Of a DNA stretch of 51,535 nucleotides, positions 10,036 to 45,266 are shown in pieces. This DNA is from a virus: positions 41,045-92,579 of the IMG/VR virus record IMGVR_UViG_3300030451_005792, one strand, 5' to 3'. A model generated the notes under the pieces. It was not told the DNA's origin and ran no database searches. It was given only the letters and a program-made list of their open reading frames with translations. Made by a program: the position numbers and the translations under genes. The first letter of the stretch is position 1. Each line of letters starts with the position of its first letter.

Positions 10036-10100
10036 ACTTGCACACTCCTTGAAAAATATCTTGAAAGCCCTTTGAAAGAAAATATTGAAGTCATAAACAT

Positions 10101-10128
10101 ATGATAGCGTTCCGTTTATGTTTTGCAA
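10101..10128 (-). promoter_or_regulatory. Sigma70-type promoter of nrdJ
   Basis: TTGCAA (10123-10128) and TATCAT (10101-10106) on the minus strand, with 16-bp spacing. A leader of about 60 bases leads to the nrdJ ATG. The leader holds three TTTCAAR repeats between 10046 and 10080 that could be an operator or an RNA element. Confidence 0.55.
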
Positions 10129-24109: not shown

Positions 24110-24499
24110 CTAACTGTTCTGAGCCCTTTTCCATGCTTCTTTATTAGGTCTGTCTTTATCTCCAGGTTTTGCTGGTTTATAATTTTTACCTTCACGAAGT
24201 TTTTTCTTTCTAATATTTTCCCACAAACTTGCAGGAGTCATATTCTTTTCATCGTCATTGGAAGGATTAAACTTTACAAAATCATGAATTGTTTTCATGT
24301 AATCCTCGGTTATAGCTATTTTACCTTGTAACCAAGCTTCTGTCAAGTTGTTCTTGACATTTTCTTCTTCTAAAGATGCTAAAATTTGTTGTGCGTGTTT
24401 AGCTATAGAAGCCAAAGAACCCATGTTCATTTCCAAAAAATCTTTTTTATATTCTGATAAATTGTCTTGTGCTTCAGACAGAATTGTGTATTTTCTCAT
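24110..24499 (-). CDS. Hypothetical small phage protein
   Basis: 129 aa, helical N-terminal two-thirds and a basic C-terminus (LREGKNYKPAKPGDKDRPNK). It overlaps the PAP2-phosphatase 3' end by 26 bases. Similar short helical proteins with a Lys/Asn/Gly tail occur in phage virion modules, but I cannot name a family. Weak ribosome site; probably translated by coupling. Confidence 0.35.
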   Translation of the reverse strand: MRKYTILSEAQDNLSEYKKDFLEMNMGSLASIAKHAQQILASLEEENVKNNLTEAWLQGKIAITEDYMKTIHDFVKFNPSNDDEKNMTPASLWENIRKKKLREGKNYKPAKPGDKDRPNKEAWKRAQNS

Positions 24500-25175
24500 A
24501 ATATTTGCTCAGTGTAGGGTAAATAGTTTGAATGATTTTGATTGAGGCTTCATTATCCGAAGGATAATGTACACCTTGTAATACACGAATATGGCCACAT
24601 TTTTCTGCTAAGGAACGAAAAGCCTGTCTTTTTTCAGGATATTTTTCGCTTAAAATTTCCGCAGCTAGAGCAGCATACATTGTATGTCCGCTAGGATATG
24701 CTGGTGTGCCATGAGTTCCAGTGCGTATAATATCAATAGGAATTTTGTAAAATTCTGCAATTTGAAAAGGTCTTGGTCTATTATAATAATATTTTAAATG
24801 ATCAATTAATTCTTGCACAACTAAGTTATATAAAGTAGCAAATTTATTATCTGGAAATATTAAATTATTACTATCTATAAAATCATTAAAAACAGAATTA
24901 GCATCCTCATCGACATCATACACTAATTTGATTTGTTCAGCACTACGGTTTTGAGTAAGTTTACTAATATATGATATTTCTTTTTTAGTAGTAGCCCCAG
25001 CATTAGATGGAGGCTTAGGAACAATATTAAATATGTCTATATTAGATAGTTCTGGAAAAGACATATGTACATACTTAGATTGTTTATAATCAAAATTTTG
25101 ATCATAACGCAAATCATCAATGTTAGAAATACTGTGCTGTAATTCTTTTTGAACAGAGTCAATTAATTTACGCAT
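24474..25175 (-). CDS. PAP2-superfamily phosphatase / haloperoxidase-like
   Basis: 233 aa. The three signature blocks are complete: K128-x6-R135-P136, P161-S-G-H164 and R197-x5-H203-x3-D207. No signal peptide or transmembrane segment, so it is a soluble phosphatase of the class A acid phosphatase/vanadium-haloperoxidase fold rather than the membrane PAP2. It could remove phosphate from sugar or lipid-linked substrates, fitting the glycan genes that follow, or be unrelated. Residues 1-60 are variable. Confidence 0.78.
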   Translation of the reverse strand: MRKLIDSVQKELQHSISNIDDLRYDQNFDYKQSKYVHMSFPELSNIDIFNIVPKPPSNAGATTKKEISYISKLTQNRSAEQIKLVYDVDEDANSVFNDFIDSNNLIFPDNKFATLYNLVVQELIDHLKYYYNRPRPFQIAEFYKIPIDIIRTGTHGTPAYPSGHTMYAALAAEILSEKYPEKRQAFRSLAEKCGHIRVLQGVHYPSDNEASIKIIQTIYPTLSKYYEKIHNSV

Positions 25176-26775: not shown

Positions 26776-27492
26776 CTATTTGTTTAATTTTGATAAGTTA
26801 ACTTTATTGTAGTGTAATAGAGCAATCGTATCCATACCAATACATTTCATGCCGTACTTTCTATAGTCAAGCCATTCTTTCATTTCTTCTTCCCATAAAT
26901 CCCATGACTCAATATCTTTAGGAATATGAATTGCCATTCTATCATTAGGAATTGCTTCTCTCATCTTTTTGATGGCGTTTTGGAATTTTTCATGCTTAAA
27001 ATCACCGGGAACCTCTAGACTTAGCGATAAATCGTAAGGCCCAATAAGATGGAAGTCAAAACCATAGCTTCTAATTTTTTGGATATTGTCAATTCCTGCC
27101 TTAGACTCAATTTGAGGAACTATTATCGGAACCCTGCTAACTAAGCCACCTCTTTCTCCCCATAAATTTTCTCTGACCAGACCTAAACCTCTTTTACCTT
27201 TAGGTGGATAGTAACAAGCATTTATTATCGCTTGACATTGTTCCTCTGTTTCTACTGTAGAGAATATTAAACCGTCACATCCTGCATCAAGACAATATCT
27301 AACTAGTGTTGGGTTAACTTCTGTAAGTCTTACAAAAGCCTTTAGTCCTTTTAGTTTAATAATTTGTATAGAACTAAAAATACTTTCATTATTAAAACAA
27401 CCATGTTCGGTATCTAGCACAACACCGTCAAAACCTTTACACATGATTTCGGTTATTTGAGTGGACGGAATTTGCTGCCACGATAGTTTCAT
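26776..27492 (-). CDS. HpcH/HpaI-family aldolase
   Basis: 238 aa class II aldolase. GVVLDTEHGCFN, YPPKGKRGLG, PQIESKAGIDNI (metal Glu) and GPYDLSLSL (metal Asp) are the diagnostic strands. Family members join or split pyruvate and an aldehyde to give 4-hydroxy-2-oxo acids. With the phosphatase and CMP-transferase nearby it may build a 2-keto-3-deoxy sugar acid; this is inference. It overlaps the GDPD-like gene by 4 bases. Confidence 0.8.
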   Translation of the reverse strand: MKLSWQQIPSTQITEIMCKGFDGVVLDTEHGCFNNESIFSSIQIIKLKGLKAFVRLTEVNPTLVRYCLDAGCDGLIFSTVETEEQCQAIINACYYPPKGKRGLGLVRENLWGERGGLVSRVPIIVPQIESKAGIDNIQKIRSYGFDFHLIGPYDLSLSLEVPGDFKHEKFQNAIKKMREAIPNDRMAIHIPKDIESWDLWEEEMKEWLDYRKYGMKCIGMDTIALLHYNKVNLSKLNK

Positions 27493-27938
27493 TGATAATC
27501 TCCTATATAATCAGAACAAATACCAGCACAATTTTCAAAATAAACTTGATGATATTCTAATGAACATTTTTCTGGAAGTACCCATATGGATCTTGAGCCT
27601 ATGCTATATCCCGGATATGTCCAGATATAACCATTGCTCGTTAATGTATAATAGTCATTTTGATGCCAAAGGCAAGTAGCATTTATATTTAATAAATTTT
27701 CCAACCCTAATAAATTTTTAGCATGACACCACAAATGTTGTTTATTTTCGAGAAAAAAAGAAATATCTACACTGACAGAAGCCTCATCATGACCTAGCCA
27801 CCATTTATTTTTATCACAACATCTTACATCTACTTCTACATGAAATCCTTTTTTTATTGCAGAAAGTATATAATCGGGGGTGTTTTCATGGTCAGGATTT
27901 GGTCCTGATATATTTCCTCTATGAGATATTAATATCAT
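27489..27938 (-). CDS. GDPD-like phosphodiesterase fold protein
   Basis: 149 aa. SHRGNISG and ENTPDYILSAIKKGFHVEVD match the HRG...E..A...G....E.D signature of glycerophosphodiester phosphodiesterases; the later GHD matches the third metal/acid motif. Half the usual length (about 240), so a minimal barrel or truncated enzyme. It may cleave a phosphodiester in a glycan or lipid linkage, or modify sugar phosphates. Confidence 0.6.
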   Translation of the reverse strand: MILISHRGNISGPNPDHENTPDYILSAIKKGFHVEVDVRCCDKNKWWLGHDEASVSVDISFFLENKQHLWCHAKNLLGLENLLNINATCLWHQNDYYTLTSNGYIWTYPGYSIGSRSIWVLPEKCSLEYHQVYFENCAGICSDYIGDYQ

Positions 27939-28276
27939 ATTATATTACCATTTTGATCTGTGTTGTATTTATCTGAAGGGACAGAAGGCCATTTAATCAC
28001 AATAACATCTACATCTTCTAATACCTCTACATCCGCTACTTCATAAGGCTCATATAAAAACATATCCCCAGTACTTAAAATATCACCAGATACATTCAAT
28101 TTACCTTTAACTATGTATGTTAATTCTTGTGCTATTTTATGAGTATGAAAATCGGCTTTGTAACCTTTACTGTGCTGGTGATGAGCAACTTCAAAAAAAC
28201 AATTTTTGAATACCGATGGATTAAAGTCTCCAATAAACCAACCATTAGTCATATTTTTAATATTATATTTTTTCAT
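27935..28276 (-). CDS. Cupin-fold protein
   Basis: 113 aa single-domain cupin. FHTHKIAQELTYIVKGKLNV is the metal-binding cupin motif 1, and LSTGDMFLYEPYEVADV is motif 2. Could be a sugar isomerase/epimerase or a metal-dependent regulator. Coupled on both sides to aldolase-side and nucleotidyltransferase genes, so a sugar-pathway isomerase is likely. Confidence 0.65.
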   Translation of the reverse strand: MKKYNIKNMTNGWFIGDFNPSVFKNCFFEVAHHQHSKGYKADFHTHKIAQELTYIVKGKLNVSGDILSTGDMFLYEPYEVADVEVLEDVDVIVIKWPSVPSDKYNTDQNGNII

Positions 28277-29433
28277 GATAGTTCTTGAACTCTAAGCTGA
28301 TGTCTACCTCCATCAAAAGAATTACGAGTTAATGTATTTATAATATCTAGTATAAATTTTTCTGATGTGCATAATCTTGCTGGAAAAGCGAAAAAATTTG
28401 CACAGTTATGCCTAATAGACATTTCTGCTGTATAATTATCTAACATTAAAGCAGACCTAATACCATCGAATTTATTTGCACAAATATTAACACCTTGACC
28501 AGTTCTGCAAAAAGCAAATATAAAATCACAGAAACCATCTTTTTTTGACAAAACTGCTTGACTAATAAAATATTTGTAATCACAATCATCACTAGAATAA
28601 GTACCAAAGTCAATATACTTGATATTTAAACTATCTAAACATTTTTTACATAATTCCTTAGCTTCATATCCTGAGTGGTCTGCGCATAATCCAATAGGTT
28701 TATTTCCAATTTTTTTAATTACATTGTCTTTGTAAAAAACAAACTCTTTTGGAGTGCCGAAAATATGTATTTTTTCAACTTGTTGAGTGTTGATCTTAAA
28801 ATTATCATTAATTAATAGATTATATAAAGGAGTTATATAGAACTCTCCCTTGGTTGTAATTTCTTCCTTAACCATTTTGTCTGCATACGAACAAAAAATA
28901 GACCCTTTGGCAAAGTAATATATTCCTACACACGCTTGATCGCTAATAACTTTCTTTTCTGCTGTTTTAGTTACTAATCCATTAGCATCTTCTTGAACAT
29001 AACTATAGTTCGAAGAATTTGATTTAAAGGTTAATAACGTACCATCTGTATTTTGTTCAACCAAATCTCTTGGATTGACTTTAGGGAAAAACTCTATATC
29101 AAGAGTATGTATAATTAAGGGTAAATCATTATCAATCAGATTACGAGCCAATAAACAGCTGCACACAGAGCCTCTTGTTAAATTTTCTGATACTACAATG
29201 CTAATATCTTCACCAAATTTATTTTTTAATATTTGCTCTGCGTTGTGACTGTATACTTGTTCATCTCTCACAATAAAAATTAAATTACATTCTGTCATAT
29301 CTATACAACTTAAAGAAATATCAATTAATTGTTTATTGTCTATATGAATAAATTGTTTAGGGGTTTCATACCCTTCTTCTTTAAACCGACTACCTAGACC
29401 GGCCATTGGTATTAATAGATTATATTTTTTCAT
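28273..29433 (-). CDS. Fusion of sugar nucleotidyltransferase and RpiB-type isomerase
   Basis: 386 aa in two domains. Residues 1-230 are an NTP_transferase: LIPMAGLGSRFKEEGYETPK binds the nucleotide. Residues 240-386 match ribose/galactose isomerase B: GLCADHSGYEAKELC, the catalytic Cys in FAFCRTGQGVNICANK, and His in RHNCANFFAFPARL. A single chain thus isomerises a sugar phosphate and may activate it. I know no standard RpiB-nucleotidyltransferase fusion. Confidence 0.75.
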   Translation of the reverse strand: MKKYNLLIPMAGLGSRFKEEGYETPKQFIHIDNKQLIDISLSCIDMTECNLIFIVRDEQVYSHNAEQILKNKFGEDISIVVSENLTRGSVCSCLLARNLIDNDLPLIIHTLDIEFFPKVNPRDLVEQNTDGTLLTFKSNSSNYSYVQEDANGLVTKTAEKKVISDQACVGIYYFAKGSIFCSYADKMVKEEITTKGEFYITPLYNLLINDNFKINTQQVEKIHIFGTPKEFVFYKDNVIKKIGNKPIGLCADHSGYEAKELCKKCLDSLNIKYIDFGTYSSDDCDYKYFISQAVLSKKDGFCDFIFAFCRTGQGVNICANKFDGIRSALMLDNYTAEMSIRHNCANFFAFPARLCTSEKFILDIINTLTRNSFDGGRHQLRVQELS

Positions 29434-30338
29434 TTATTTACCTTTAATGTTCTAGTGCTTATTTGATCTATTAATGTTTTTATTGATGTTGGTAGATTGT
29501 TTGGCCAAGAATGATTTTGACTAACATCAACATTTAAAAACTCCGCTGATCGACCTACCGGGCCTTGCAACTGTGAGTCTGATCTGTTTGGCGGAAAATG
29601 TCCACACAATATTCTATGTGGTGGTATTTCTACGTCACCACGCAGAACATCTATGCATTCTATATCAATTATTCTAAAATCACTAAAGTCTGGTGACATT
29701 AAAATATTATTGGCTGAAATATCAGAAAAATACAATCCAGTTGCGTCATAAAACTTTTGATATTCGTCAATAATTTGATTATATAAATTTTTTATAAATT
29801 CATAATTTGATAGCTTTGAATGGTATTCTGCTTTATGTTTTTGAAAAACTTCGTTCGTATAGAAATCACAAACATCCAACACTACTAATGGAACCCAATC
29901 AGGGTAAAATTTTGTTAATACTCCCAACTGGTTGTCAACCTCTGTTAAAGAGTTTTTTATTTCTATAATTTTATTGTCTTTTAAAGAGTATTCTTGGGCT
30001 TCATTCTTTTTTTCTTGAGAAAGAGCACCCCAACGCAAACCTTCATTGACCGGAACAAAAAATAACTCTTCTCCATGATTCAATATTTCAAAATATTTAG
30101 TACCCCATTTATTTTCATGTGTCTTAGTAATTTGAGTCCATCCATGCGATTCGGACATTTTCTTTTGAGCTTCCATCACACCGTCATAAAGCTGATTGTA
30201 AGCAGACTTCACAAGGTCTAACCGTATAGGCCCTAAGTGAATGTGAACCATGCCATCTGCATTATATTCAATAGTCAGATTTTTGTACTCAGGATCTGTA
30301 TTAACATCTCCCAGAATTTTTTTCACTATATGTCCCAT
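29430..30338 (-). CDS. Kinase-fold protein (APH/lipopolysaccharide-kinase-like)
   Basis: 302 aa. YFSDISANNILMSPDFSDFR followed by IIDIECID mirrors the H/Y-x-D-x4-N catalytic loop and D-x-G/D-I-E metal motif of small-molecule or lipopolysaccharide kinases. The N-terminal region contains VHIHLGPIRLDL, a short motif repeated in the next gene. It may phosphorylate a sugar or lipid head group; protein-kinase activity is less likely. AGGA precedes the start. Confidence 0.6.
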   Translation of the reverse strand: MGHIVKKILGDVNTDPEYKNLTIEYNADGMVHIHLGPIRLDLVKSAYNQLYDGVMEAQKKMSESHGWTQITKTHENKWGTKYFEILNHGEELFFVPVNEGLRWGALSQEKKNEAQEYSLKDNKIIEIKNSLTEVDNQLGVLTKFYPDWVPLVVLDVCDFYTNEVFQKHKAEYHSKLSNYEFIKNLYNQIIDEYQKFYDATGLYFSDISANNILMSPDFSDFRIIDIECIDVLRGDVEIPPHRILCGHFPPNRSDSQLQGPVGRSAEFLNVDVSQNHSWPNNLPTSIKTLIDQISTRTLKVNK

Positions 30339-30613
30339 TATAATCTTCCTTTTCTTTTCATATGAATATATAATTCATTAAATTCTTCATACGTAAAATG
30401 TAGTCGTATGTTTGGCAAATCCTTATAAAAAGGACAGGCTTCTTTTGACGTTAAATCAGGAGGTGCTTCGCCATTAGAGTAAACTGGTCTTATATCTCCC
30501 ATATGAATGTGTATAGGATACAGATCTCCTATATTGTCTTCTATAATATATTTGCAACCTTTAATTGGAAAGTCGCAAGTGCCTTCATATAAATCTTTTG
30601 CTATTATTCCCAT
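30338..30613 (-). CDS. Small hypothetical protein with IHIHMGDIR motif
   Basis: 91 aa from the ATG (an in-frame TTG two codons earlier is unsupported). It contains YPIHIHMGDIRPVY, which matches VHIHLGPIRLDL in the kinase-like neighbour, and then FTYEEFNELYIHMKRKG. It appears to be a stand-alone copy of the kinase's N-terminal module. Function unknown; likely a partner or regulator. Confidence 0.4.
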   Translation of the reverse strand: MGIIAKDLYEGTCDFPIKGCKYIIEDNIGDLYPIHIHMGDIRPVYSNGEAPPDLTSKEACPFYKDLPNIRLHFTYEEFNELYIHMKRKGRL

Positions 30614-30615
30614 TG

Positions 30616-31272
30616 TCAACCACCCCCTAAGCTATATTTATTAACAGAATTTAAATCTTGATTGTATAAAGATTCAACTATTTTTTGAGCATAAGGCAAG
30701 GTCAATTCAACTGATTTTACTAAGTTCTTTTTTTCTACCTGTGGTAATAGCTCGAAAACACGATTTATGGACTTTTGTTTCCAGTTGCCCCTTTTGTCTA
30801 AAACATTTCTCAATATTTGTATAGTAATTTCATTTTCAGCAGACGGTATCCATATAAAACCTTCATCGAATTGTTTTTTGATTTTAGTTTCATAAACATA
30901 TTCATTAAATGAATGAGAAACAATCCAAGTAGTTTCATAATTCTTTAACGGACTATCGAAAAATAAAGAACTGTCTGTATCAATATAAAATCTTTTTTCT
31001 GCTATGTCATCGTTGTCTGGGCCTTTTGTTTTATAAGAATGATTGTTCATAAAAGCATACTCAGCAAATCCATATTCTCTAATCCAATGGCAATCAAGAT
31101 GTTTTTTAATAATCTCCATGCACTCGTCAAAGTTAGTATAATGAGGGACTAAATCAATGTCATTATCACCAGAATCCGGCAACCTCAGAAAACCTCTGAC
31201 TATAACATAATTTATGTCGTTTAAGTTAATTTCTTGCATTACATCCCAAAATTGTTGTTTATGACTTTCCAT
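30616..31272 (-). CDS. Nucleotidyltransferase-fold protein
   Basis: 218 aa from the ATG behind AAGGAG at 7 bases. YVIVRGFLRLPDSGDNDIDL has the G-S/G...D-x-D pattern of the MNT/Pol-beta-type nucleotidyltransferase fold. The C-terminal half is helical (KKQFDEGFIWIPSAENE, IQILRNVLDKRGNWKQ). It sits between kinase-like genes, so a sugar or small-molecule nucleotidylation is plausible. Confidence in the fold is moderate. Confidence 0.5.
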   Translation of the reverse strand: MESHKQQFWDVMQEINLNDINYVIVRGFLRLPDSGDNDIDLVPHYTNFDECMEIIKKHLDCHWIREYGFAEYAFMNNHSYKTKGPDNDDIAEKRFYIDTDSSLFFDSPLKNYETTWIVSHSFNEYVYETKIKKQFDEGFIWIPSAENEITIQILRNVLDKRGNWKQKSINRVFELLPQVEKKNLVKSVELTLPYAQKIVESLYNQDLNSVNKYSLGGG

Positions 31273-31951
31273 TGTTTTTCTCCTTCTGTTCATTAAGATA
31301 TGTTGATATTGCATCATGAGATTTTTGTAAAGCATCTATTACATTTTTATTTTTTAAGTAATAATCAATAAATCCAGAAACCAACATATCTCCACAACCT
31401 AACACGTTCACACCGTCAATCTGTTTTACTTTAAAATGATCAATTTTTTCGCCTGTGTTATGATAATATGAACTTCCTAAAGAGTGATGCAAAATTAATC
31501 CTTTCTTTAAAAATTTACATATACGCTTTGGATCGCAAAACTCATCTTCATCAGACAAAAAAAGAAAATCCACATATTTGAGAATAGAAAAATCCTCAAT
31601 AACTCTACCTCTACAAACATCCGCAGAAACTATTCCACTCTTAATATCTTTTATATAACTGATATCATTCAGTTCATTCAAATACATAATGTGGTTCCAT
31701 TGTGATTCTTTCAAAGTCGGCTTTCTACATTTTAGACTTAAGTTTGCTATTGATGCTCGTTCGTTAGTATGCCTATTTATAAAAATCATTGCTTCACCAA
31801 TATCAGTTGGTTCAATATATATTTTTAGATTTGGATTTAGCCTATTTAAATATTTCCAAACATTGCCAATCGACCCGATTGAGCAATCTTTTTTAAAGTT
31901 GTCAAATATCCTATCTAAAGTTATATGTCCATATATAGCAACATTATACAT
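31259..31951 (-). CDS. PfkB/ribokinase-family sugar kinase
   Basis: 230 aa, shorter than usual (about 300). The C-terminal VLGCGDMLVSGF is the GAGD/DTxGAGD anion hole with the catalytic Asp, and GSIGNVWKYLNRLN replaces the usual N-terminal GGxxxN loop. It should phosphorylate a furanose or a sugar 1-position, as HldE/RfaE kinases do. Coupled to the HAD phosphatase start and the nucleotidyltransferase-fold gene. Confidence 0.68.
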   Translation of the reverse strand: MYNVAIYGHITLDRIFDNFKKDCSIGSIGNVWKYLNRLNPNLKIYIEPTDIGEAMIFINRHTNERASIANLSLKCRKPTLKESQWNHIMYLNELNDISYIKDIKSGIVSADVCRGRVIEDFSILKYVDFLFLSDEDEFCDPKRICKFLKKGLILHHSLGSSYYHNTGEKIDHFKVKQIDGVNVLGCGDMLVSGFIDYYLKNKNVIDALQKSHDAISTYLNEQKEKNNGKS

Positions 31952-32478
31952 TAAAAAATCTCTTTACTATCTAGTTTTTCTATATCACCCATACTACAGT
32001 CTGGTACTAAGCCTCTTTGATGCAGTATGTTGTATAGCTGGCATACTACATTATTACCTCCGTCTGTAGGTATTATATTATATGTTCCACAAATGTCAAG
32101 AATATCTGGACAAGCATCCTGCGGACAATATTTATGTCCTACTTCTAACATAATATCTTTATCAAATAAATCATCTCCCACATATAATATCTCTGCTCTT
32201 TTTACGCTGTAAACGGTTTCTAATGTGGGTAAAAATGATTTCTTGTTTTCCCCCTGTCTTGCTGCGTAAAAATCTATGTTTCTATTCTTTGCCATATTTT
32301 CATTTATTTTTTTGTCTCCAGACAAAAAGCATACGTCTACGCCTGATGCTCTTAGCCTTTTGATAGCGGTAAAATCTTTATCACAATAAGTTTTAGCAAA
32401 TGGCATACCATCTAAACCATAGTATTTCTTACCGTCTGTCAATACGCCATCTATATCCAGTATCACTAGTCCTAGCAT
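31951..32478 (-). CDS. KdsC-like HAD phosphatase
   Basis: 175 aa. LDIDGVLTDGKKYY carries the two catalytic Asp residues (D8 and D10) in the exact KdsC/CMP-NulO-phosphatase form. CFLSGDKKINENMAK and ILYVGDDLFDKDIMLEVG are motifs II-IV. KdsC removes phosphate from Kdo-8-P. Here it probably clears an ulosonic acid phosphate, next to a CMP-sugar synthetase at 33230. Length matches KdsC (about 180). Confidence 0.82.
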   Translation of the reverse strand: MLGLVILDIDGVLTDGKKYYGLDGMPFAKTYCDKDFTAIKRLRASGVDVCFLSGDKKINENMAKNRNIDFYAARQGENKKSFLPTLETVYSVKRAEILYVGDDLFDKDIMLEVGHKYCPQDACPDILDICGTYNIIPTDGGNNVVCQLYNILHQRGLVPDCSMGDIEKLDSKEIF

Positions 32479-32483
32479 TTATT

Positions 32484-33230
32484 TTACTCTCTGATAACAC
32501 TTAGTAAATTATTAGACATATGATTAATATCATAATTATTTTGGTGAATATAATCTTTAAACACATACTCAGCAAATACATTAGGATAATTATCTTTTAT
32601 ATTTCTTAGATTACATTTTAATATATCTATATGGTATTGGTGCATGAGTGTTTTCATAATATAATAGTTACTACCAAAAACAATGTCTCCAACTTTAAAA
32701 TTTTGGTCTGCCAACCCAAAGCAATTTACTTTATTGTTGTTAAAATTATCAAAAATGATAGGCTCTCTATAATCCAAATCAAATCTGCACTTAACTACAA
32801 GATCATAGTTACAATGAGAATCAATAATAAGATTGAATGCCCTATACCATGTGTGAGATTGAGCTATTATGCCATTTTGTATAAGTAGATTCGGCTGTAT
32901 ATGCTCAGGTGTTCCTATTACTTTTATTAATTTCTTTGTGTGTTCTCTAAAAAAAGAGTTTATCTCATGGTATTGATTCATGATGCAATACCGTTTTGGA
33001 CTATAAGACCTAATTATATCTATTAAAACATCTTCTGATAATTTCTTGATATCTGTAGCATATTCATTTGGTTTTTCTTTATCTTCTACTCTTAGGTGAG
33101 TATGATCCCATACAGATAGATATATGTCTAAATCATGATTTTGATTAGCGAGTAGTATATTTTTATTAAAACTAGGAAGAGACTTTTTATATGTTCTAGA
33201 TAAACCCGATAGAGTAATGGCTATTTTCAT
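32484..33230 (-). CDS. GT-A-like glycosyltransferase (RFDLD)
   Basis: 248 aa. The start IAITLSGLSRTYKKSLPSF is the opening of a glycosyltransferase group seen in large viruses, followed by IYLSVWDHTH. LVVKCRFDLDYREPI has the D-x-D metal site. No CAZy family assigned. It lies between the CMP-sugar synthetase and the HAD phosphatase, so it may use the CMP-sugar they supply; that is only an inference. Confidence 0.55.
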   Translation of the reverse strand: MKIAITLSGLSRTYKKSLPSFNKNILLANQNHDLDIYLSVWDHTHLRVEDKEKPNEYATDIKKLSEDVLIDIIRSYSPKRYCIMNQYHEINSFFREHTKKLIKVIGTPEHIQPNLLIQNGIIAQSHTWYRAFNLIIDSHCNYDLVVKCRFDLDYREPIIFDNFNNNKVNCFGLADQNFKVGDIVFGSNYYIMKTLMHQYHIDILKCNLRNIKDNYPNVFAEYVFKDYIHQNNYDINHMSNNLLSVIRE

Positions 33231-33877
33231 TAGTGTGTTTCTAGTAATTGTGCATTAGATACTATCTTCCAATCTTGTTCAGTATCAATATCTAAATTAT
33301 ATGGAAAGCCTAATTCTAGCAAATAAGGGTTCTTACCAATCCTATTGTCCTGATCCAACACTTCAGGCTTAAAAGCATATAAATATGAGTTTTCACAATA
33401 GTATTTAGGCAAGTCTTGGGTTTGTTCTAACTTCATAGGATTGTGATTAATGGGGCAGTAGCCATAAGACTCCTTTCTCCATAACCTTTGCTGCATAATA
33501 TCCACACTAAATACAGAGTCGTGTCCTGCGACTAACTTATCTTGAGCAATTTTTAAATGTTCTACTTGCAGGAAGGGGGATGTCACATGGATTTGGCAAA
33601 TATAATCTGTGACTTGGTAAAGCTCTCTAAAATTTTTTATGAGAGAAACAACCGATATTTTATCTCCTAATAAATCTTTATGTCTTGGATATGCTATAAC
33701 ATTATCAAGAGTCTCACATTCATTCATGATTTCTTTAGAATCAGTATCTATATAGACTGTATATTGATCAGAGACTTTGTCTACAGTATGTTTCCATAGA
33801 GGTTTACCCTGAAACATTCTAAAGTTTTTTCTCGGAACTCTTTGAGAGTTTTCTTTTATTGGTATAAATATTTTCAT
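33230..33877 (-). CDS. CMP-sugar synthetase, NeuA/KdsB-like
   Basis: 215 aa. IPIKENSQRVPRKNFRMFQG is the cytidylyltransferase signature (IPAR-x-GS-K/R-R-x-P-x-KN). TVYIDTDSKEIMNEC and QIHVTSPFLQVEHL are the later strands that bind CTP and the sugar acid. It should activate a nonulosonic or ulosonic acid with CMP. Length fits CMP-NeuAc synthetases (about 225). Confidence 0.82.
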   Translation of the reverse strand: MKIFIPIKENSQRVPRKNFRMFQGKPLWKHTVDKVSDQYTVYIDTDSKEIMNECETLDNVIAYPRHKDLLGDKISVVSLIKNFRELYQVTDYICQIHVTSPFLQVEHLKIAQDKLVAGHDSVFSVDIMQQRLWRKESYGYCPINHNPMKLEQTQDLPKYYCENSYLYAFKPEVLDQDNRIGKNPYLLELGFPYNLDIDTEQDWKIVSNAQLLETH

Positions 33878-34768
33878 TTAGTTGTCTCTTTGAGGATTTT
33901 CCTTTATGTGAGAAGCAATCCATTCATTTGTAATATCAAAATGTTGTGATATTCTATGGGTATCTAAATAATTAATATTGCTTGATTGTTTTTCGTTTAT
34001 AAATGTAGCAGCCAGAGTGTCTGATACATTCAATGGTCTGAAAAGGTTAAGATAAAAATATTTAATACTTAAAGAATCATTTAAGTTGTAATTAGCTGAT
34101 CTTAATTCATCTATCTGTTTATAGGATGCAGATATTTCTTTCCACATATTATCCATACCTAATTTGGCAGCACCGGGGTTTTGATTGTATGCTCCACCAG
34201 TAGAAACTCCATTATCATAAACCATCTTATGGCTACAAATAACATTTTTAAAAAAAGGAATCTCTTGTATATTAAACATGTGACATGCATCAATGTCTAC
34301 TCTATATTTAGTATACATAGGAAAGAACCAGTTCAACAAACTTTTATGAATCATTTTGAATCCAGCATGAGTAAATGGTATACAAGATTTTTCTCTACTC
34401 TGTAAATAGTCCATATCATGAGCATAAGGAGTATCCACCAAACTTTTACCGGGATAGTATGTAAGTACTGCTGGATTCCAATCTAAATCTTCTAAAACCT
34501 GTTCGCACGGATTTAAATTAGATCTAGTTGTCAAAATATAGTCATAATCCACAAAACCATAATAATCATATTGTTTGGGAACTAATTCAACAAGTGTATT
34601 TCTAGTTTCCGACCATACAGTATTAGGGCAAAACTTTAGAGCGTCTGGGTGTTCAGCATTGTGTGTGACAAAGAAAAAATCACAATCAGGCTTATCTTTA
34701 AAATATTCTATATGTTCTGGATTAGGTTTTTCGGGTGTGACTTGTAAGATGCAAAGTCTTTTACTCAT
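33878..34768 (-). CDS. Glycosyltransferase-like protein
   Basis: 296 aa from the ATG that overlaps the Gmd stop (ATGA) and has GGGAG 8 bases upstream. YYGFVDYDYILTTRSNLNP holds a D-x-D; PFTHAGFKMIHKSLLNWFF resembles a GT-A acceptor loop. No family assigned. It lies between Gmd and the CMP-sugar synthetase. Confidence 0.5.
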   Translation of the reverse strand: MSKRLCILQVTPEKPNPEHIEYFKDKPDCDFFFVTHNAEHPDALKFCPNTVWSETRNTLVELVPKQYDYYGFVDYDYILTTRSNLNPCEQVLEDLDWNPAVLTYYPGKSLVDTPYAHDMDYLQSREKSCIPFTHAGFKMIHKSLLNWFFPMYTKYRVDIDACHMFNIQEIPFFKNVICSHKMVYDNGVSTGGAYNQNPGAAKLGMDNMWKEISASYKQIDELRSANYNLNDSLSIKYFYLNLFRPLNVSDTLAATFINEKQSSNINYLDTHRISQHFDITNEWIASHIKENPQRDN

Positions 34769-35736
34769 AATTCTTGCTCCCATCTTTCTATCATTTCATC
34801 TATCATTGTATCGAATGTGTATTCTGGTCGCCAGCCTAAAACCTCTCTAGATTTTGTAGAATCTCCTTTAAGATATCTCAATTCTTCTGGCCTCATATAT
34901 TTTGGATTTTGAACCACAAACTCCTTGTAGTCCATACCAAGTTTATTAAATACTACTTCACACAACTCTCTGACAGAATGACTTTCTCCTGTAGATATAA
35001 TGAAATCATCTGGAATTTTATGATTAACTATCATATGCATCGCTCTAACATAGTCTTTTGAATGCCCCCAATCTCTAGAAGAATCCATATTCCCTAATTC
35101 TAATTGAGTAGCTAATCCTTTCTTAATAGAAACTGCTGTTTTAATAACTTTATTCGTAACAAAGTTAGAGCCTCTTCTTGGAGATTCATGATTAAACAAA
35201 ATGCCGTTACAAGCGTGAAGCCCATAAGCATGTCTATAGTGCCTGACTAAGTTGTAACCCAAGACTTTAGAGCATCCATAAGGACTAACAGGATTCATAG
35301 GAGTGGTAAGTCTTTGCACGCCATCATCGTCTACAGAGTTACCAAACATTTCAGAAGATGAGGCTTGATAAAATTTAGCATATGGGCATAGGGTTTTATA
35401 TATTTCTAACATATTCAGAACACCCAAGGCATTGGTCTGAATAGTATAGGCAGGCATATCAAAACTAATTCTAACATGACTCATGGCTCCCAAGTTATAT
35501 ATTTCATCTGGCATAACTTCGGTGAATATTCTTACTAATGATGGATAATCTAACAAATCGCCATAATACGACTTAACTTCTTTAGCGATATCATTTTTAG
35601 CAAGTCTGTAATTTTGATTTTCTGCTACTGAATGTCTTCTAACAATACCATGTACTTCATATCCTAAAGACAAAAGATATTCAGATAAGTAGCTACCGTC
35701 TTGTCCATTAATTCCGGTTATTAATGCTTTTTTCAC
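34765..35736 (-). CDS. gmd: GDP-mannose 4,6-dehydratase
   Basis: 323 aa, near the bacterial norm of about 345-370. TGINGQDGSYLSEYL (7-21) is the NAD(P) loop, RRHSVAEN the cofactor 2'-phosphate contact, and SPYGCSK gives Y153 and K157. NLGAMSHVRISFDMP and GNMDSSRDWGHSKDYVRA are GMD hallmarks. It converts GDP-mannose to GDP-4-keto-6-deoxymannose, precursor of GDP-fucose, GDP-rhamnose and GDP-perosamine. It starts 4 bases inside the aminotransferase-like gene. Confidence 0.92.
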   Translation of the reverse strand: MKKALITGINGQDGSYLSEYLLSLGYEVHGIVRRHSVAENQNYRLAKNDIAKEVKSYYGDLLDYPSLVRIFTEVMPDEIYNLGAMSHVRISFDMPAYTIQTNALGVLNMLEIYKTLCPYAKFYQASSSEMFGNSVDDDGVQRLTTPMNPVSPYGCSKVLGYNLVRHYRHAYGLHACNGILFNHESPRRGSNFVTNKVIKTAVSIKKGLATQLELGNMDSSRDWGHSKDYVRAMHMIVNHKIPDDFIISTGESHSVRELCEVVFNKLGMDYKEFVVQNPKYMRPEELRYLKGDSTKSREVLGWRPEYTFDTMIDEMIERWEQEL

Positions 35737-38947: not shown

Positions 38948-39649
38948 TTATGTAGAGCGAAATAATTGTAAGGCTTCTTGTAATGAGGCTTTATCAAAAC
39001 ATTCTAATTTAGATACAGGGCTACAATTTATCATCCTAATCCCATGTTCTTTAGCTAATTGACCAAAGGCACACCAAGTAGGTTTCATAAACTCTTCCCC
39101 TCTAGGAATATTGTATCTATCTCCTGTTTGTTGATAATCATCAAACCAGTAATTAGGGTTTTTCTCAGGAGTTTTGGTAATCCTCAACCCTGACTTCCAA
39201 GGGGCAGCACCTTGAACATAATTAACGTAGTTACAATCTACTCCAACCAGAATGATTTTTTTATATCCTAAACACATAGCTACAGAACAGGCGTTTGCTC
39301 CACTGTTACCATTATCAGTAAAAAATTTAAAATCTTCAGGTGTCTTATTAATGTGATGGGTATGACCATAAAGCTGCATATTAATATGAGTAAAATTTGG
39401 CTTATCAGAAATGTTGTTTATATAAAAATGTCTTTGTATTTTACCGGTATCAATTAGCTTAACAAAGTTTTCTTGATGACAGTCAGTAACGATTTGATCA
39501 AAACAACCATGATATGTAGGATACCAGTTTAATTTTTCATATACTCTGTATGCCCCATTTAAACCAAAAGTATCACAACCTTCTAATAAAGACCAATCTA
39601 ATTCTTTTAATGATGGGCCATTACCCATTACGACTAATATTTCGTTCAT
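38948..39649 (-). CDS. GT42/DUF115-like glycosyltransferase (sialyltransferase-type fold)
   Basis: 233 aa from the ATG directly after the upstream stop (TAATATG); the frame extends into the neighbour. ILVVMGNGPSLKELDWSLLE is the CMP-donor loop of GT42 sialyltransferases (Cst-I/II) and also of DUF115. KKIILVGVDCNYVNYVQGAA is the second core strand. If GT42-like it would use a CMP-activated acid made by the synthetase at 33230. DUF115 is the main alternative. Confidence 0.55.
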   Translation of the reverse strand: MNEILVVMGNGPSLKELDWSLLEGCDTFGLNGAYRVYEKLNWYPTYHGCFDQIVTDCHQENFVKLIDTGKIQRHFYINNISDKPNFTHINMQLYGHTHHINKTPEDFKFFTDNGNSGANACSVAMCLGYKKIILVGVDCNYVNYVQGAAPWKSGLRITKTPEKNPNYWFDDYQQTGDRYNIPRGEEFMKPTWCAFGQLAKEHGIRMINCSPVSKLECFDKASLQEALQLFRST

Positions 39650-39650
39650 A

Positions 39651-40406
39651 TTATTTGTGTATAAAGTATACATCCTTCCTGTCGTTTTGATATTTTTTAA
39701 ATTCACTTGTAAAAGGCTCACCTAACAGTAAATGTTTGTCAGACATCATATGTCTAAACACATATTGACCAACCCACATATCTGCATTAAAATGAGGATT
39801 GGCTAAGTCTGTTCTAACTTGGCAAAAGGTATCTAAAAATAACATTATATTGCTATAATTTCCACCTATTACTCCCATATTAATAAGATCAAGTTTTCTT
39901 TGTAGATGCTGCATGGCGAACCAAGAATAGTTTTCCCATCCAGCCTGTTGATGAATACCTAAATATCCAAAATCAGCTAACTTAATACTGTCTTTACAGA
40001 TAAAGAAATCTACATCAGGATAATCTGTAATAACTTTAGCAGGGTCTTGTACTACTGTTACATCTGAACCATCTGTTAAAAATACGGAATCATACTGTTT
40101 GTCTTTTAAAAAATCCTTGTATACAAAAAATCTCCAATCGTTATTAGAGTATTCTGAAGGGTTGACTTTTACAAATTTAATATTATCGTTTTGATATTTG
40201 TTCACAAAGTCAGGCAATAAATTATCATAAAAAACCACACCTTGCAATCCTAGACTATTGATAGAATTATACCAAGGTGCAATATATTTTATATCGTTTT
40301 GCAAAACTCTTCCGTCATCAGTTTTGCCCACCACCCAGCGATCATTAGGGTCATTAGGGTGTATTTTTTGAGAAAAATAAGTCGTAAAGATTACTGAATT
40401 ACTCAT
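39651..40406 (-). CDS. GT-A-like glycosyltransferase
   Basis: 251 aa. KQYDSVFLTDGSDVTVVQDP has a D-x-S-D pattern at the metal site; DLINMGVIGGNYSNIMLFLD and NADMWVGQYV match the GT8-like core found in planctomycetes and large viruses. Family not certain. It overlaps the deoxyribosyltransferase-like stop by 8 bases. Confidence 0.5.
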   Translation of the reverse strand: MSNSVIFTTYFSQKIHPNDPNDRWVVGKTDDGRVLQNDIKYIAPWYNSINSLGLQGVVFYDNLLPDFVNKYQNDNIKFVKVNPSEYSNNDWRFFVYKDFLKDKQYDSVFLTDGSDVTVVQDPAKVITDYPDVDFFICKDSIKLADFGYLGIHQQAGWENYSWFAMQHLQRKLDLINMGVIGGNYSNIMLFLDTFCQVRTDLANPHFNADMWVGQYVFRHMMSDKHLLLGEPFTSEFKKYQNDRKDVYFIHK

Positions 40407-40932
40407 TAAGAAAATACCATCTATTTAAAGAGTCTATGTTAGCGCTAGTGTTAATGTGATATAAGTATGATATAATACCATCCCATGTATCGAAAAATAA
40501 TTCGTGTGGAATAGTACCAAAAAGCCAGTCTGGACAATTATGTTTACCCTGTTGTATATGAACTATAATAGGCTTCTTTTGTCTATTGGCAAGAAAAATT
40601 TCTTCTAAAGTTCCACAGGGATGAGTATCTATATCTAGATGTACAATTAAGAAGTCACTTATATCAACCAGCCTTAAATCAACTGCTCTAATGGTTTTCA
40701 TTATTTCAGTTAGTTGATCGTATTTTTTAGCGAGTTTTAAGGTTTGCTTGACTTTATGTGTTTCTTCATTCTCTAAACCTATAGCCCCTGGTTTTTTAAT
40801 AGGATCAAATACATTAATGTCTAATGTTTTTAAAACAGGAGTAATATGTTCTCTCCACCCCACTCCTCTATCTGGCACTCTATCCATAGCGCCAGCTAGA
40901 TATACACGCTGTCCTTTAAGTCTATTAGTCAC
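40399..40932 (-). CDS. Nucleoside 2-deoxyribosyltransferase-like protein
   Basis: 177 aa from a GTG behind GGTGG; the conserved domain starts just after. RVYLAGAMDRVPDRGVGWRE and DLRLVDISDFLIVHLD, with HPCGTLEEIFLANRQKKPII, are the NDT signature. The fold exchanges bases on deoxyribonucleosides or hydrolyses nucleotides. Phage copies may salvage nucleotides; the fold is also related to TIR/NADase-type enzymes, so NAD metabolism is an alternative. The gene before it is a possible macro-domain protein. Confidence 0.7.
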   Translation of the reverse strand: MTNRLKGQRVYLAGAMDRVPDRGVGWREHITPVLKTLDINVFDPIKKPGAIGLENEETHKVKQTLKLAKKYDQLTEIMKTIRAVDLRLVDISDFLIVHLDIDTHPCGTLEEIFLANRQKKPIIVHIQQGKHNCPDWLFGTIPHELFFDTWDGIISYLYHINTSANIDSLNRWYFLNE

Positions 40933-40991
40933 GGGTATAGCCACCAATAAAACTAACTATCATAATAAATAATAAAAAAATATAATAATCA

Positions 40992-41931: not shown

Positions 41932-41959
41932 ATTATAAGCCCATACTCTATCTTGTCAA
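41932..41959 (-). promoter_or_regulatory. Consensus sigma70 promoter
   Basis: TTGACA (41954-41959) and TATAAT (41932-41937) on the minus strand with 16-bp spacing, overlapping the end of the subtilase gene. It should drive the basic/zinc/macro/deoxyribosyltransferase run and possibly the sugar block. Confidence 0.75.
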
Positions 41960-42852
41960 GAAAGAACAGGAGTGATAATACCTCTAGAATGATATGTTTT
42001 AAAAATATGTTCTGGTTTTAAGCTATACTTAGAAAAATGCTCAATATAATCATATTTAGTTAATTTTCTTTTCTTGTACGCCAATAGTAATGCAGCACAT
42101 CCTGCCGCAAATGGATTTGCCATACTAGTTCCTGTCATATTAGCATAACTATCGTCAGGGACGCAACTAATAACATCTTCTCCCGGCGCTAAAAAATCTA
42201 ACTCACTTCCATTACTACAACTAAATCTAGATATTTTAAAGTTATTACTAATAGAACCAATAGAAATAGTATCTGTATATTTAGCTGGATATGATAATTC
42301 TTTGCTTTGTCCACTATTACCAGCAGCACAAAATAAAGCACACCCTTTATCGACTGCATAATTTATACATTGTCTTAACATTAAAGAACCAACAGGAGTT
42401 CCTAAAGACATAGTTATAATGTCTGCACCATTATCGGCTGCGTATAAAATAGCCTCGCCAATATCTCTAACACTACCAGAACCATCATCTCCTAGACTTT
42501 TTAAAGGCATAATTTTAGATTTAGGAGCAACTCCCACTATACCTTTTTTATTATTACGGGCAGCAATAGTACCAGCAACATGAGAACCATGACCATTACG
42601 ATCAACAGGAGATTTATTTCTTTCACAAAAATTATAACCGTCTACTAAACTTTCTTGTAGGTCTGGATGGTCTAAATCACAACCAGTATCTATAACAGCA
42701 ACTACAACACCTTCTCCCTGTGATTTTGCCCATTCTTTCTGGACATTAAATTGAGATATAGACCAAGGAATAACTTGTTGATTATTATAATTTAAGCCAT
42801 AAATATTTTTACGAATAAATGGTAATAGTTTACATTTCTGTCTTGACAACAT
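41956..42852 (-). CDS. Subtilisin-family serine protease
   Basis: 298 aa. The triad is complete: D55 in VIDTGCD, H88 in NGHGSHVAG, S243 in GTSMANP, and the oxyanion N179 in AAGNSG. There is no typical signal peptide (start LSRQKCKLLPFIRKN) and no long propeptide, so it acts in the cytoplasm or is released at lysis. It overlaps the trypsin-like gene by 23 bases. Protease pairs are unusual in phages; the target may be host proteins or virion precursors. Confidence 0.88.
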   Translation of the reverse strand: MLSRQKCKLLPFIRKNIYGLNYNNQQVIPWSISQFNVQKEWAKSQGEGVVVAVIDTGCDLDHPDLQESLVDGYNFCERNKSPVDRNGHGSHVAGTIAARNNKKGIVGVAPKSKIMPLKSLGDDGSGSVRDIGEAILYAADNGADIITMSLGTPVGSLMLRQCINYAVDKGCALFCAAGNSGQSKELSYPAKYTDTISIGSISNNFKISRFSCSNGSELDFLAPGEDVISCVPDDSYANMTGTSMANPFAAGCAALLLAYKKRKLTKYDYIEHFSKYSLKPEHIFKTYHSRGIITPVLS

Positions 42853-43930: not shown

Positions 43931-44821
43931 CTAATACTTTCCTAATATACGACCTTTGCTAGTTCTTCTGACATATCCCATCCTAACAAGATATGGCTCA
44001 ATACTATTCTCTATAGTATCCATAGCAATCCCCGTCATGCTAGAAATATTTTTGATGCCTAAAGCAGTACCTTTATTGTCTTTAAGAACTTCCATATACT
44101 TTCTATCGTTTTCATCTAATCCCGAGGAGTCTATTCCCTGTTCTGCAAAAACTTCTTCTACGCTTACAGAATCATCTTTAAAGTACAATTTATAATTTTG
44201 ATACCATTCTAGTCTAGCGTTTAAAATACGAGGTGTACCTTTGCTTCTAACGGCAATTTGATATGCCGTATCGTCATTCATAGAAAATCCTGACCTTTGA
44301 GCATTCAATCTTGCTAGTTTAGCTAGTTCATTTTCGGTATAAAAAGTCAAATGTTCCTTAATTGTAAATCTATCATAAAAAGGCTGAGTCAAAGTACCAC
44401 CGCTAGTTGTAGCACCCACTAAAGTAAATGGAGGTATTTCGATTTCCTCTGGCTCTGAATCAATAGCAATATTAGCAGTAAAATTCTCCATTACTGGATA
44501 AAGAAACTCTTCTACTAATTTAGGCAGGTTGTGTATCTCATCAATAAATAAAACACAATCTCTTGTAACGTTGTATAAGTATTTCATTATATTTCCAACG
44601 CTACGAATTGCTGCTGCATTTGCCGTAATTAATTCACTACCTAACTCTTCAGCTATCGCTGCTGCTATAGTAGTTTTACCTAATCCCGGTGGCCCATCTA
44701 ACAAAACATGAGACATAGGCTTGTTTTGCTGTTTGCAAGCAAAAGTTGAGATTTTTAATCTTTTAATTACTTCTTCTTGACCAATAACATCATCAAAAGA
44801 ACTGGGTCTGAAACTTTGCAT
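43931..44821 (-). CDS. ruvB: RuvB Holliday-junction helicase
   Basis: 296 aa. It starts MQSFRPSSFDDVIGQEEVI, with Walker A GPPGLGKT at 43-50, Walker B DEIHNL, sensor-1 LVGATTSGG and the arginine finger YDRF. The C-terminal winged helix IEPYLVRMGYVRRTSKGRIL is diagnostic of RuvB rather than a clamp loader. Slightly shorter than bacterial RuvB (about 336). The ATG has AAGGAAG upstream. It drives branch migration with RuvA, of which no gene is seen here; it may use the host's RuvA or act alone. Confidence 0.88.
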   Translation of the reverse strand: MQSFRPSSFDDVIGQEEVIKRLKISTFACKQQNKPMSHVLLDGPPGLGKTTIAAAIAEELGSELITANAAAIRSVGNIMKYLYNVTRDCVLFIDEIHNLPKLVEEFLYPVMENFTANIAIDSEPEEIEIPPFTLVGATTSGGTLTQPFYDRFTIKEHLTFYTENELAKLARLNAQRSGFSMNDDTAYQIAVRSKGTPRILNARLEWYQNYKLYFKDDSVSVEEVFAEQGIDSSGLDENDRKYMEVLKDNKGTALGIKNISSMTGIAMDTIENSIEPYLVRMGYVRRTSKGRILGKY

Positions 44822-44822
44822 C

Positions 44823-45266
44823 TTAATCTTCCTTAAAGTTTTTTGTCCAAAAAATAAAATCGTTTCTATCTTCATCAAAAGCGGAATCAAGATAACCTTT
44901 TTTAACTAGAATTGAAATCATGTTACTAATAAATCTTCTTTGAATATCTTCAATAACGTCACCAACTGCATCAATGCTTATTAGGTATACTTTTTCTTTA
45001 GTTTTTTTATGTCGTAATCTTTTAGTTTTATCTTTAACTATGGTCACACATTCTGAAAGGGCTAATAAATTGTTTAATTCTTCTTTTTCGTCATCTGTTA
45101 AATCGTTAATGTCGCAATCAAGTAAAAAGTCAGGTTCCTCTTCAGTATCTTCTTCGTCTATGTATTTAAGTACTGAGCCGTTAAAGTTAATATAAACCAT
45201 AGTTCTAAGATAGTTTGTAAACTTATCAAGGTCGTCTATTTCTAGCCATTCTGAATCTTTGCTCAT
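44823..45266 (-). CDS. Acidic hypothetical protein
   Basis: 147 aa. N-terminal half rich in Glu and Asp (DEEDTEEEPDFLLDCDIND), then a basic helix KTKRLRHKKTKEKVYL and a structured C-terminus. It overlaps nothing but touches the RuvB gene with one base. Similar acidic small proteins in large phages are of unknown role; it may regulate RuvB. Confidence 0.4.
   Translation of the reverse strand: MSKDSEWLEIDDLDKFTNYLRTMVYINFNGSVLKYIDEEDTEEEPDFLLDCDINDLTDDEKEELNNLLALSECVTIVKDKTKRLRHKKTKEKVYLISIDAVGDVIEDIQRRFISNMISILVKKGYLDSAFDEDRNDFIFWTKNFKED

Follow-up and report, generated by a model that had tools for sequence, protein, structure and literature searches.

An HpaI-type aldolase linked to CMP-transferases in phages and Desulfobacterota: a possible second route to activated ulosonic acids

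Introduction

The established pathways to cell-surface ulosonic acids, such as 3-deoxy-D-manno-oct-2-ulosonic acid (Kdo), sialic acid and pseudaminic acid, rely on synthases that depend on phosphoenolpyruvate (PEP). Here we analyse a gene block in a 51,535-nucleotide stretch of viral DNA (the window), which spans bases 41045-92579 of the 92,579-base IMG/VR record IMGVR_UViG_3300030451_005792; virus records are fragments, and this one may be incomplete. The block contains a class II pyruvate aldolase of the HpcH/HpaI type (26776, genes being named here by their first position in the window), a member of the NeuA/PseF/KdsB superfamily predicted to transfer cytidine monophosphate (CMP) to an ulosonic acid (33230, the CMP-transferase) and a GT42-like glycosyltransferase (38948). 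We think it fairly probable that these three genes, which we call module B, provide a route to an acidic CMP-sugar leading from the aldolase over the CMP-transferase to the GT42-like enzyme, with a set of other sugar-metabolic genes (28273-32478, module A) as a second, separately inherited module. The block consists of these two modules, and the pathway that a first-pass annotation had drawn from this one genome mixes them and is corrected here.

Several described systems resemble the block. The Kdo and nonulosonic acid pathways share with it a CMP-transferase of the same superfamily with the metal-binding Asp kept, transferases of the GT42 and GT29 types and, in some related loci, an enzyme of KdsB grade, whereas the window's record lacks a PEP-dependent synthase and has an HpaI-type aldolase linked to the CMP-transferase instead. 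With the class II HpcH/HpaI aldolases (HpaI, GarL, YfaU/RhmA, SwHpcH) the protein encoded by 26776 has in common the fold family and all five aligned catalytic or metal-binding residues, but the characterised natural roles of those enzymes are catabolic, while the phage clade occurs in glycan clusters beside CMP-transferases and branches apart. T4-like marine phages (P-SSM2, S-SM2, S-SSM7) carry clusters of lipopolysaccharide (LPS) genes, and it is an open question whether these are functional or “stuffer DNA” (PMC3037559). The likeness to them lies in a large glycan gene block in a T4-like phage and in the occurrence of module A in cyanophages, whereas we found no published mention of the aldolase-CMP-transferase pair for such clusters.

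Linkage of the Aldolase to CMP-Transferases in Phages

A nucleotide search with 20 kb of the block against the phage collection gave no match, no relative of the CMP-transferase was found among 50,697 named phage records, and the aldolase had only two distant matches there, both in records labelled as Staphylococcus phages. Since close relatives were lacking in named phages, uncultured virus contigs were used for comparison. A scan of IMG/VR with a profile of the phage aldolase retrieved 50 loci, and the aldolases collapse to 36 clusters at about 90% similarity. A member of the CMP-transferase family lies in the retrieved flanks of 45 of 51 aldolase loci (window included), in many of them adjacent to the aldolase, with the two genes overlapping or abutting. 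Counted by cluster, the CMP-transferase is found within 10 kb of the aldolase in 31 of 36, and in 29 of these 31 a sialyltransferase-like gene of the GT42 or GT29 type is present as well. When IMG/VR was scanned independently for the CMP-transferase subfamily, 37 loci were retrieved, which form 26 clusters at about 90%, and the aldolase is present in every locus (37/37, a figure that holds for this subfamily only, as the scan patterns were built from aldolase loci and cover one subfamily), and both genes are on the same strand in 26/26 clusters.

Loci with module A, which are likewise phage polysaccharide-type gene blocks, served as the control. None of 80 has a CMP-transferase (Fisher p ~3e-23, or ~6e-16 if only the 38 module A loci of at least 15 kb are used); these p-values overstate the independent evidence because the sequences within each group are related, but the contrast is still complete. 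Chance co-occurrence within a glycan block was rejected on the basis of this control.

The CMP-transferase nearest to the aldolase is not always of the same type. Many loci have the PseF-like type of the window, others a second NeuA/PseF-like type, and two (L124, L132) a KdsB type, which in L124 overlaps the aldolase by one base and reaches 169.5 bits with TIGR00466 (KdsB equivalog cut-off 155.2). Judged from these family assignments, the partner of the aldolase changes while its role appears to stay the same. A further companion is an SIS-HAD fusion, in which a GmhA-like SIS domain precedes a HAD-like C-terminal part; it is encoded in 30 of the 36 aldolase clusters, usually directly downstream of the aldolase (e.g., L092:10680-11654), and may supply the aldehyde. 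A gene for a D-2-hydroxyacid-dehydrogenase-like protein is also present in 6/36 phage and 11/19 bacterial aldolase clusters (see below). Directly downstream of the aldolase in L086, L088, L089, and L090 (near 10920) there is also a nucleoside 2-deoxyribosyltransferase-like gene, of which the window has one (40399-40947) about 13 kb upstream of its aldolase.

The Aldolase Is Distinct From Known Degradative Enzymes

The protein encoded by 26776 scores 68.4 bits with its Pfam family (cut-off 25), and its PDB matches are all HpaI-family enzymes (E 2e-20). Residues E29, H30, R55, E129, and D154 align with E46, H47, R72, E151, and D177 of AbHpaI, which are described as metal-binding or catalytic (PMC8560999), and are invariant in the phage alignment (A1). 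With the equivalog models of the degradative enzymes HpaI, GarL, and RhmA the protein reaches 73-95 bits, far from the cut-offs of 369-441. In a maximum-likelihood tree of 77 sequences all phage aldolases form one clade (support 100/100), and a branch with 99/91 support parts the phage aldolases, together with CMP-linked bacterial ones, from YfaU, GarL, and 15 unlinked paralogues; the long phage stem (1.35 changes per column) leaves the exact position of the phage clade among the bacterial clades uncertain. Placement within a strictly degradative clade had been named beforehand as an outcome that would speak against an ulosonate-forming role, and on this 99/91 branch the phage enzymes stand apart from the degradative E. 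coli aldolases. Assignment as a degradative aldolase was rejected on this basis.

A related explanation is that the phage enzyme works in the cleavage direction, providing pyruvate for the infected cell or breaking down a sugar acid of the host, and that its neighborhood is incidental. The characterised HpaI, GarL, and YfaU are indeed catabolic, as judged from NCBIfam names and operons; set against this, the 99/91 branch lies between them and the phage and CMP-linked bacterial aldolases, and the linkage to CMP-transferases and sialyltransferase-like genes is strong, which makes cleavage the most improbable of the explanations considered here. For the synthetic direction, purified aldolases of PF03328 have been found to add pyruvate, and some of them hydroxypyruvate, to hydroxyaldehydes in vitro (PMC7610986), and a condensation is therefore chemically reasonable. 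Hydroxypyruvate as donor would give 3-hydroxy acids resembling D-glycero-D-talo-oct-2-ulosonic acid (Ko-like).

CMP-Transferase and Glycosyltransferase Partners

Family membership of 33230 is clear (56 bits with its Pfam family, cut-off 22.6), and CMP-NeuAc synthetases are its only PDB matches. PseF is the best NCBIfam model, with 74 bits, well below the equivalog cut-off of 205.7, and the KdsB models give 16-26 bits. The first-pass annotation had noted that its reading would fail if this enzyme clustered with those of another nucleotide; it is closest to CMP-ulosonate enzymes. Two aspartates of the protein, D196 and D198, are invariant and align with the Mg-binding pair D209/D211 of NmCSS, in which these residues bind the metal and Gln104 contacts the sugar (PMC2901514). 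At the position of Gln104, a residue expected in NeuA proper, 33230 has His97, which is invariant in the alignment of the family (A2). NmCSS Lys142 aligns ambiguously, and no conclusion is drawn from that position.

The third component, 38948, falls below the Pfam cut-offs when taken alone (CST-I 19.8 of 25; MptE-like 33.3 of 34.6) and is therefore called GT42-like here rather than filed as a member of GT42. A profile of its family (17 members) matches only GT42 sialyltransferases in PDB (CstII, 2e-9), and the top Foldseek match of its AlphaFold model (predicted local distance difference test, pLDDT, 88.9) is Campylobacter CstII (E 1.2e-5, TM ~0.51), with the Maf glycosyltransferase of Magnetospirillum also among the matches. 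The initial call of a GT42-like transferase thus holds by family profile and fold, with a Pfam score below the cut-off.

The glycosyltransferase that goes with the pair differs among the aldolase loci, being GT42-like in some and GT29-like in others, and both folds are supported by profiles and by AlphaFold/Foldseek. GT29-like gene, CMP-transferase and aldolase are consecutive in L102, L108, L109, L114, L122, and L135. The GT29 assignment is based on Pfam matches with E ≤0.01 in 10 of 14 members (44 bits in L108, cut-off 23) and on a PDB profile match, and the model of the GT29-like protein (pLDDT 95.5) has mammalian sialyltransferases as its best fold matches. Genes of this animal-type sialyltransferase family are thus seen in marine phages (L108:8596-9345, L086:6419-7105, and relatives); their products have a sialylmotif-like sequence and a fold predicted with confidence to be GT29-like. 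A conserved companion of module B is the family of 33878, which lies upstream of the CMP-transferase in L087 and L090-L092, forms a fusion with a GT29-like domain in, e.g., L091 and L107, and is counted in 41/50 aldolase loci, a number inflated by merging with GT42-like members.

Module A Forms a Separate Gene Set

The open reading frames of the block, listed in Table 1, are all present at their annotated positions, and profile scans confirmed the families assigned to them in the first-pass annotation, the kinase being the weakest call. Families were assigned by Pfam and NCBIfam profile scans against the cut-offs, PDB profile searches, and AlphaFold with Foldseek. In the window the genes of module A sit between CMP-transferase and aldolase.

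Table 1. Features of the two modules in the window (aa, amino acids; positions are those of the window).
Position	Strand	Feature	Length	Module	Basis
26776..27492	-	HpcH/HpaI-type class II pyruvate aldolase, proposed ulosonate-forming enzyme	238 aa	B	PF03328
27489..27938	-	GDPD-like protein	149 aa	with both	phrog_34507 6.7e-24
27935..28276	-	Cupin	113 aa	A	Directly downstream of nucleotidyltransferase-RpiB fusion in most of 78 loci
28273..29433	-	Fusion protein of sugar-phosphate nucleotidyltransferase and RpiB/LacAB isomerase	386 aa	A	PF00483 + PF02502
31259..31951	-	Short PfkB-like sugar kinase	230 aa	A	Weak PfkB, GCGD motif
31951..32478	-	KdsC-like HAD phosphatase	175 aa	A	TIGR01670 74.7 bits, below cut-off 106.95
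33230..33877	-	Predicted CMP-ulosonate cytidylyltransferase, NeuA/PseF/KdsB superfamily	215 aa	B	PF02348 (CTP_transf_3)
33878..34783	-	Probable glycosyltransferase, conserved companion, DxD-like VDYDY	301 aa	B	Conserved neighborhood
38948..39721	-	GT42-like (CstI/II-fold) putative CMP-sugar glycosyltransferase	257 aa	B	Family profile, AlphaFold/Foldseek

Both parts of the fusion protein 28273 exceed their cut-offs (NTP_transferase 24.4, cut-off 21.2; LacAB_rpiB 110.4, cut-off 24.7), and it is 60% identical over 99% to proteins of the Synechococcus phages Bellamy (L001) and SynMITS9220M01 (L002). The phosphatase, given its score below the model's cut-off, is rightly termed KdsC-like and not KdsC, and in the kinase, with 16.1 bits below the PfkB cut-off, only the C-terminal nucleotide-binding part is recognised. 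The GDPD likeness of 27489 rests on a motif, with no Pfam match, and its family occurs in 67/80 module A loci and in 19/36 aldolase clusters.

We scanned IMG/VR with the nucleotidyltransferase-RpiB fusion, which gave 80 module A loci, and also compared named phages. The kinase lies directly downstream of the phosphatase, and the order phosphatase, kinase, nucleotidyltransferase-RpiB, cupin and (GDPD-like protein) is conserved in about 77-80 phage loci. By profile search, HpaI aldolases, CMP-transferases and GT42- and GT29-like genes are absent from all 80 loci. Of the 36 virus records with the aldolase, in turn, that of the window alone has RpiB or KdsC-type genes, and the closest relative (L087) has GT42, the 33878-like gene, CMP-transferase, aldolase and a 25677-like glycosyltransferase in this order without any module A gene. 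It follows that the genes of module A are not part of the aldolase unit. In named cyanophages the cassette is mostly annotated as “phosphatase” and “hypothetical protein.”

These distributions bear on the five-enzyme pathway of the first-pass annotation, in which RpiB would form an aldose phosphate, the kinase would act on it, the aldolase would add pyruvate, the KdsC-like enzyme would dephosphorylate the product and the CMP-transferase would activate it. In the phage of the window all these genes are contiguous and co-oriented, the order of the chemistry is plausible, and KdsC-like phosphatases act in the pathways of Kdo and of 2-keto-3-deoxynononic acid (KDN), according to NCBIfam names. About 80 loci, however, have the isomerase/kinase/phosphatase set but neither aldolase nor CMP-transferase, in 35/36 aldolase records there is no RpiB and no KdsC-type gene, and L087 keeps the GT42-like gene, the 33878-like gene, the CMP-transferase and the aldolase without them, so that we regard a single pathway as quite unlikely. 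What stands of the earlier proposal is the unit of aldolase, CMP-transferase and sialyltransferase-fold enzyme, with the aldolase where KdsA or NeuB would be expected; the RpiB, PfkB-like and KdsC-like enzymes belong elsewhere.

In heptose activation an isomerase (GmhA), a kinase (HldE/HddA), a phosphatase (GmhB) and a nucleotidyltransferase (HldE/HddC) lead to an NDP-sugar (NDP, nucleoside diphosphate). By analogy, module A most likely represents an isomerase-kinase-phosphatase-nucleotidyltransferase route to an NDP-sugar that follows the same logic. As in ADP/GDP-heptose activation, one isomerase, a PfkB-like kinase, a HAD phosphatase and a nucleotidyltransferase form one gene set, but the isomerase is fused to the nucleotidyltransferase and the phosphatase is KdsC-like. 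Neither a GmhA-type SIS isomerase nor a kinase identifiable as a heptose kinase was found in module A, the isomerase being of the RpiB type and the kinase match weak.

Related Gene Pairs in Desulfobacterota

A first contig scan of bacterial genomes yielded one distant locus, and its genome was taken as the centre of a search in 395 genomes, whose label as Desulfobacterota, bacteria of the sulfate-reducer type, is that of the centre genome. There the phage aldolase has its best relatives at 26 places (E 1e-30 or better), 15 of which have a CMP-transferase within 1.5 kb, as compared to 0/14 for HpaI paralogues with weaker matches from 50 other genomes. In 18 of the 19 Desulfobacterota aldolase clusters examined a CMP-transferase, often a KdsB-like one, lies within about 8 kb. 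Several clusters share five genes, encoding the aldolase, a KdsB- or PseF-like enzyme, a D-2-hydroxyacid-dehydrogenase-like protein, an NAD-dependent epimerase-like protein and a HAD hydrolase, and the KdsB-like protein of L209 scores above the KdsB cut-offs. The linkage of aldolase and CMP-transferase is thus not restricted to phages but also exists in bacteria. Glycan clusters of this make-up in Desulfobacterota (L205-L217, L234-L239) might encode an apparently undescribed CMP-sugar pathway.

A Proposed Route to CMP-Ulosonic Acids

The route that we propose for module B would begin with the class II HpaI-type aldolase, which would join pyruvate (or a close analogue) and a sugar-derived aldehyde to a 2-keto-3-deoxy (ulosonic-type) acid and would thus stand in for the PEP-dependent synthase KdsA or NeuB. 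The NeuA/PseF/KdsB-superfamily enzyme would then use cytidine triphosphate (CTP) to form the CMP-ulosonate, and the GT42-fold transferase, or a GT29-fold enzyme in related phages, would place the acid on a glycan of the host surface or the virion. In the phage of the window the aldehyde may come from host metabolism or conceivably from module A.

Consistent with this, and as the first-pass annotation had remarked for the window, the whole 92,579-base record, which may be incomplete, contains by profile search no NeuB (PF03102) and no KdsA/DAHP synthase (PF00793). Among the aldolase records NeuB was not found in 33/36 and a KdsA-type synthase not in 34/36. The related loci L115 and L118 have a KdsA-like (244.7 bits in L115, NF003543 cut-off 242), a NeuB-like and an HpaI-type enzyme along with three CMP-transferases within about 9 kb, and L124 has a NeuB-like enzyme, an HpaI aldolase and two CMP-transferases. 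As the number of CMP-transferases in these three records matches that of synthases plus aldolase, the aldolase counts as one more synthase.

The same records bear on another explanation, in which the substrate of the CMP-transferase is an acid that the host's KdsA or NeuB produces, such as Kdo, and the aldolase makes another building block of the same glycan pathway, e.g., a hydroxy-keto acid that decorates a sugar. Most Gram-negative hosts make Kdo, L115 and L118 carry KdsA beside the aldolase, and some phages have a single aldolase but two CMP-transferases. However, the CMP-transferase subfamily was never seen without the aldolase (37/37), and where classical synthases do occur, in three records, the CMP-transferases outnumber them by one, the extra one going with the aldolase. 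We consider this explanation unlikely, if less so than a single pathway that includes module A.

Several observations weigh against the aldolase-dependent route. Five of 36 aldolase clusters have no detectable CMP-transferase, two of them being short contigs and the others (L125, L126, L130) one subclade. With the RpiB module set apart, no gene of the window clearly provides the aldehyde, and the SIS-HAD fusion gene is absent from the window's record. A one-to-one count of CMP-transferases and acid-forming enzymes is not general, as L094, L098, and L099 each have one aldolase for two CMP-transferases and lack a classical synthase. Where KdsA and aldolase occur together (L115/L118) the aldolase could do something else, and host KdsA or NeuB could supply the acid, all the more as virus records are fragments. 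His97 in place of the sugar-contacting Gln104 makes Neu5Ac (N-acetylneuraminic acid) itself an unlikely substrate of 33230, which, judged from this residue, probably acts on a different acid.

Taken more widely, the reading that an HpaI-type aldolase provides a dedicated PEP-independent route to CMP-ulosonic acids across many marine phages and Desulfobacterota appears to us evenly balanced between true and false. No description of an aldolase-CMP-ulosonate or HpaI-KdsB pathway was found in the open-access literature searched, which is weak evidence of absence. So strict a linkage of a pyruvate aldolase to CMP-ulosonate enzymes, across dozens of phages and also in bacteria, suggests that there is a second way to ulosonic acids and that new sugars are to be found. 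Moreover, that the pair has been kept over deep divergence with its catalytic residues intact argues that the LPS genes of T4-like marine phages work.

Other Genes of the Window

A PAP2-superfamily phosphatase (24474-25175) is conserved in the relatives L086-L088 and L090, and a subtilase-family (S8) protease with a strong Pfam match (41956-42852) has a counterpart in L087. The window further encodes a B12-dependent ribonucleotide-reductase-like protein (7840-10128) and a RuvB-type Holliday-junction helicase (43931-44890). A pseudopilin-like protein (49732-50715) combines an N-methylation motif with DUF1559 (SBP_bac_10), a family that we take to be typical of Planctomycetota and relatives and that may hint at the host.

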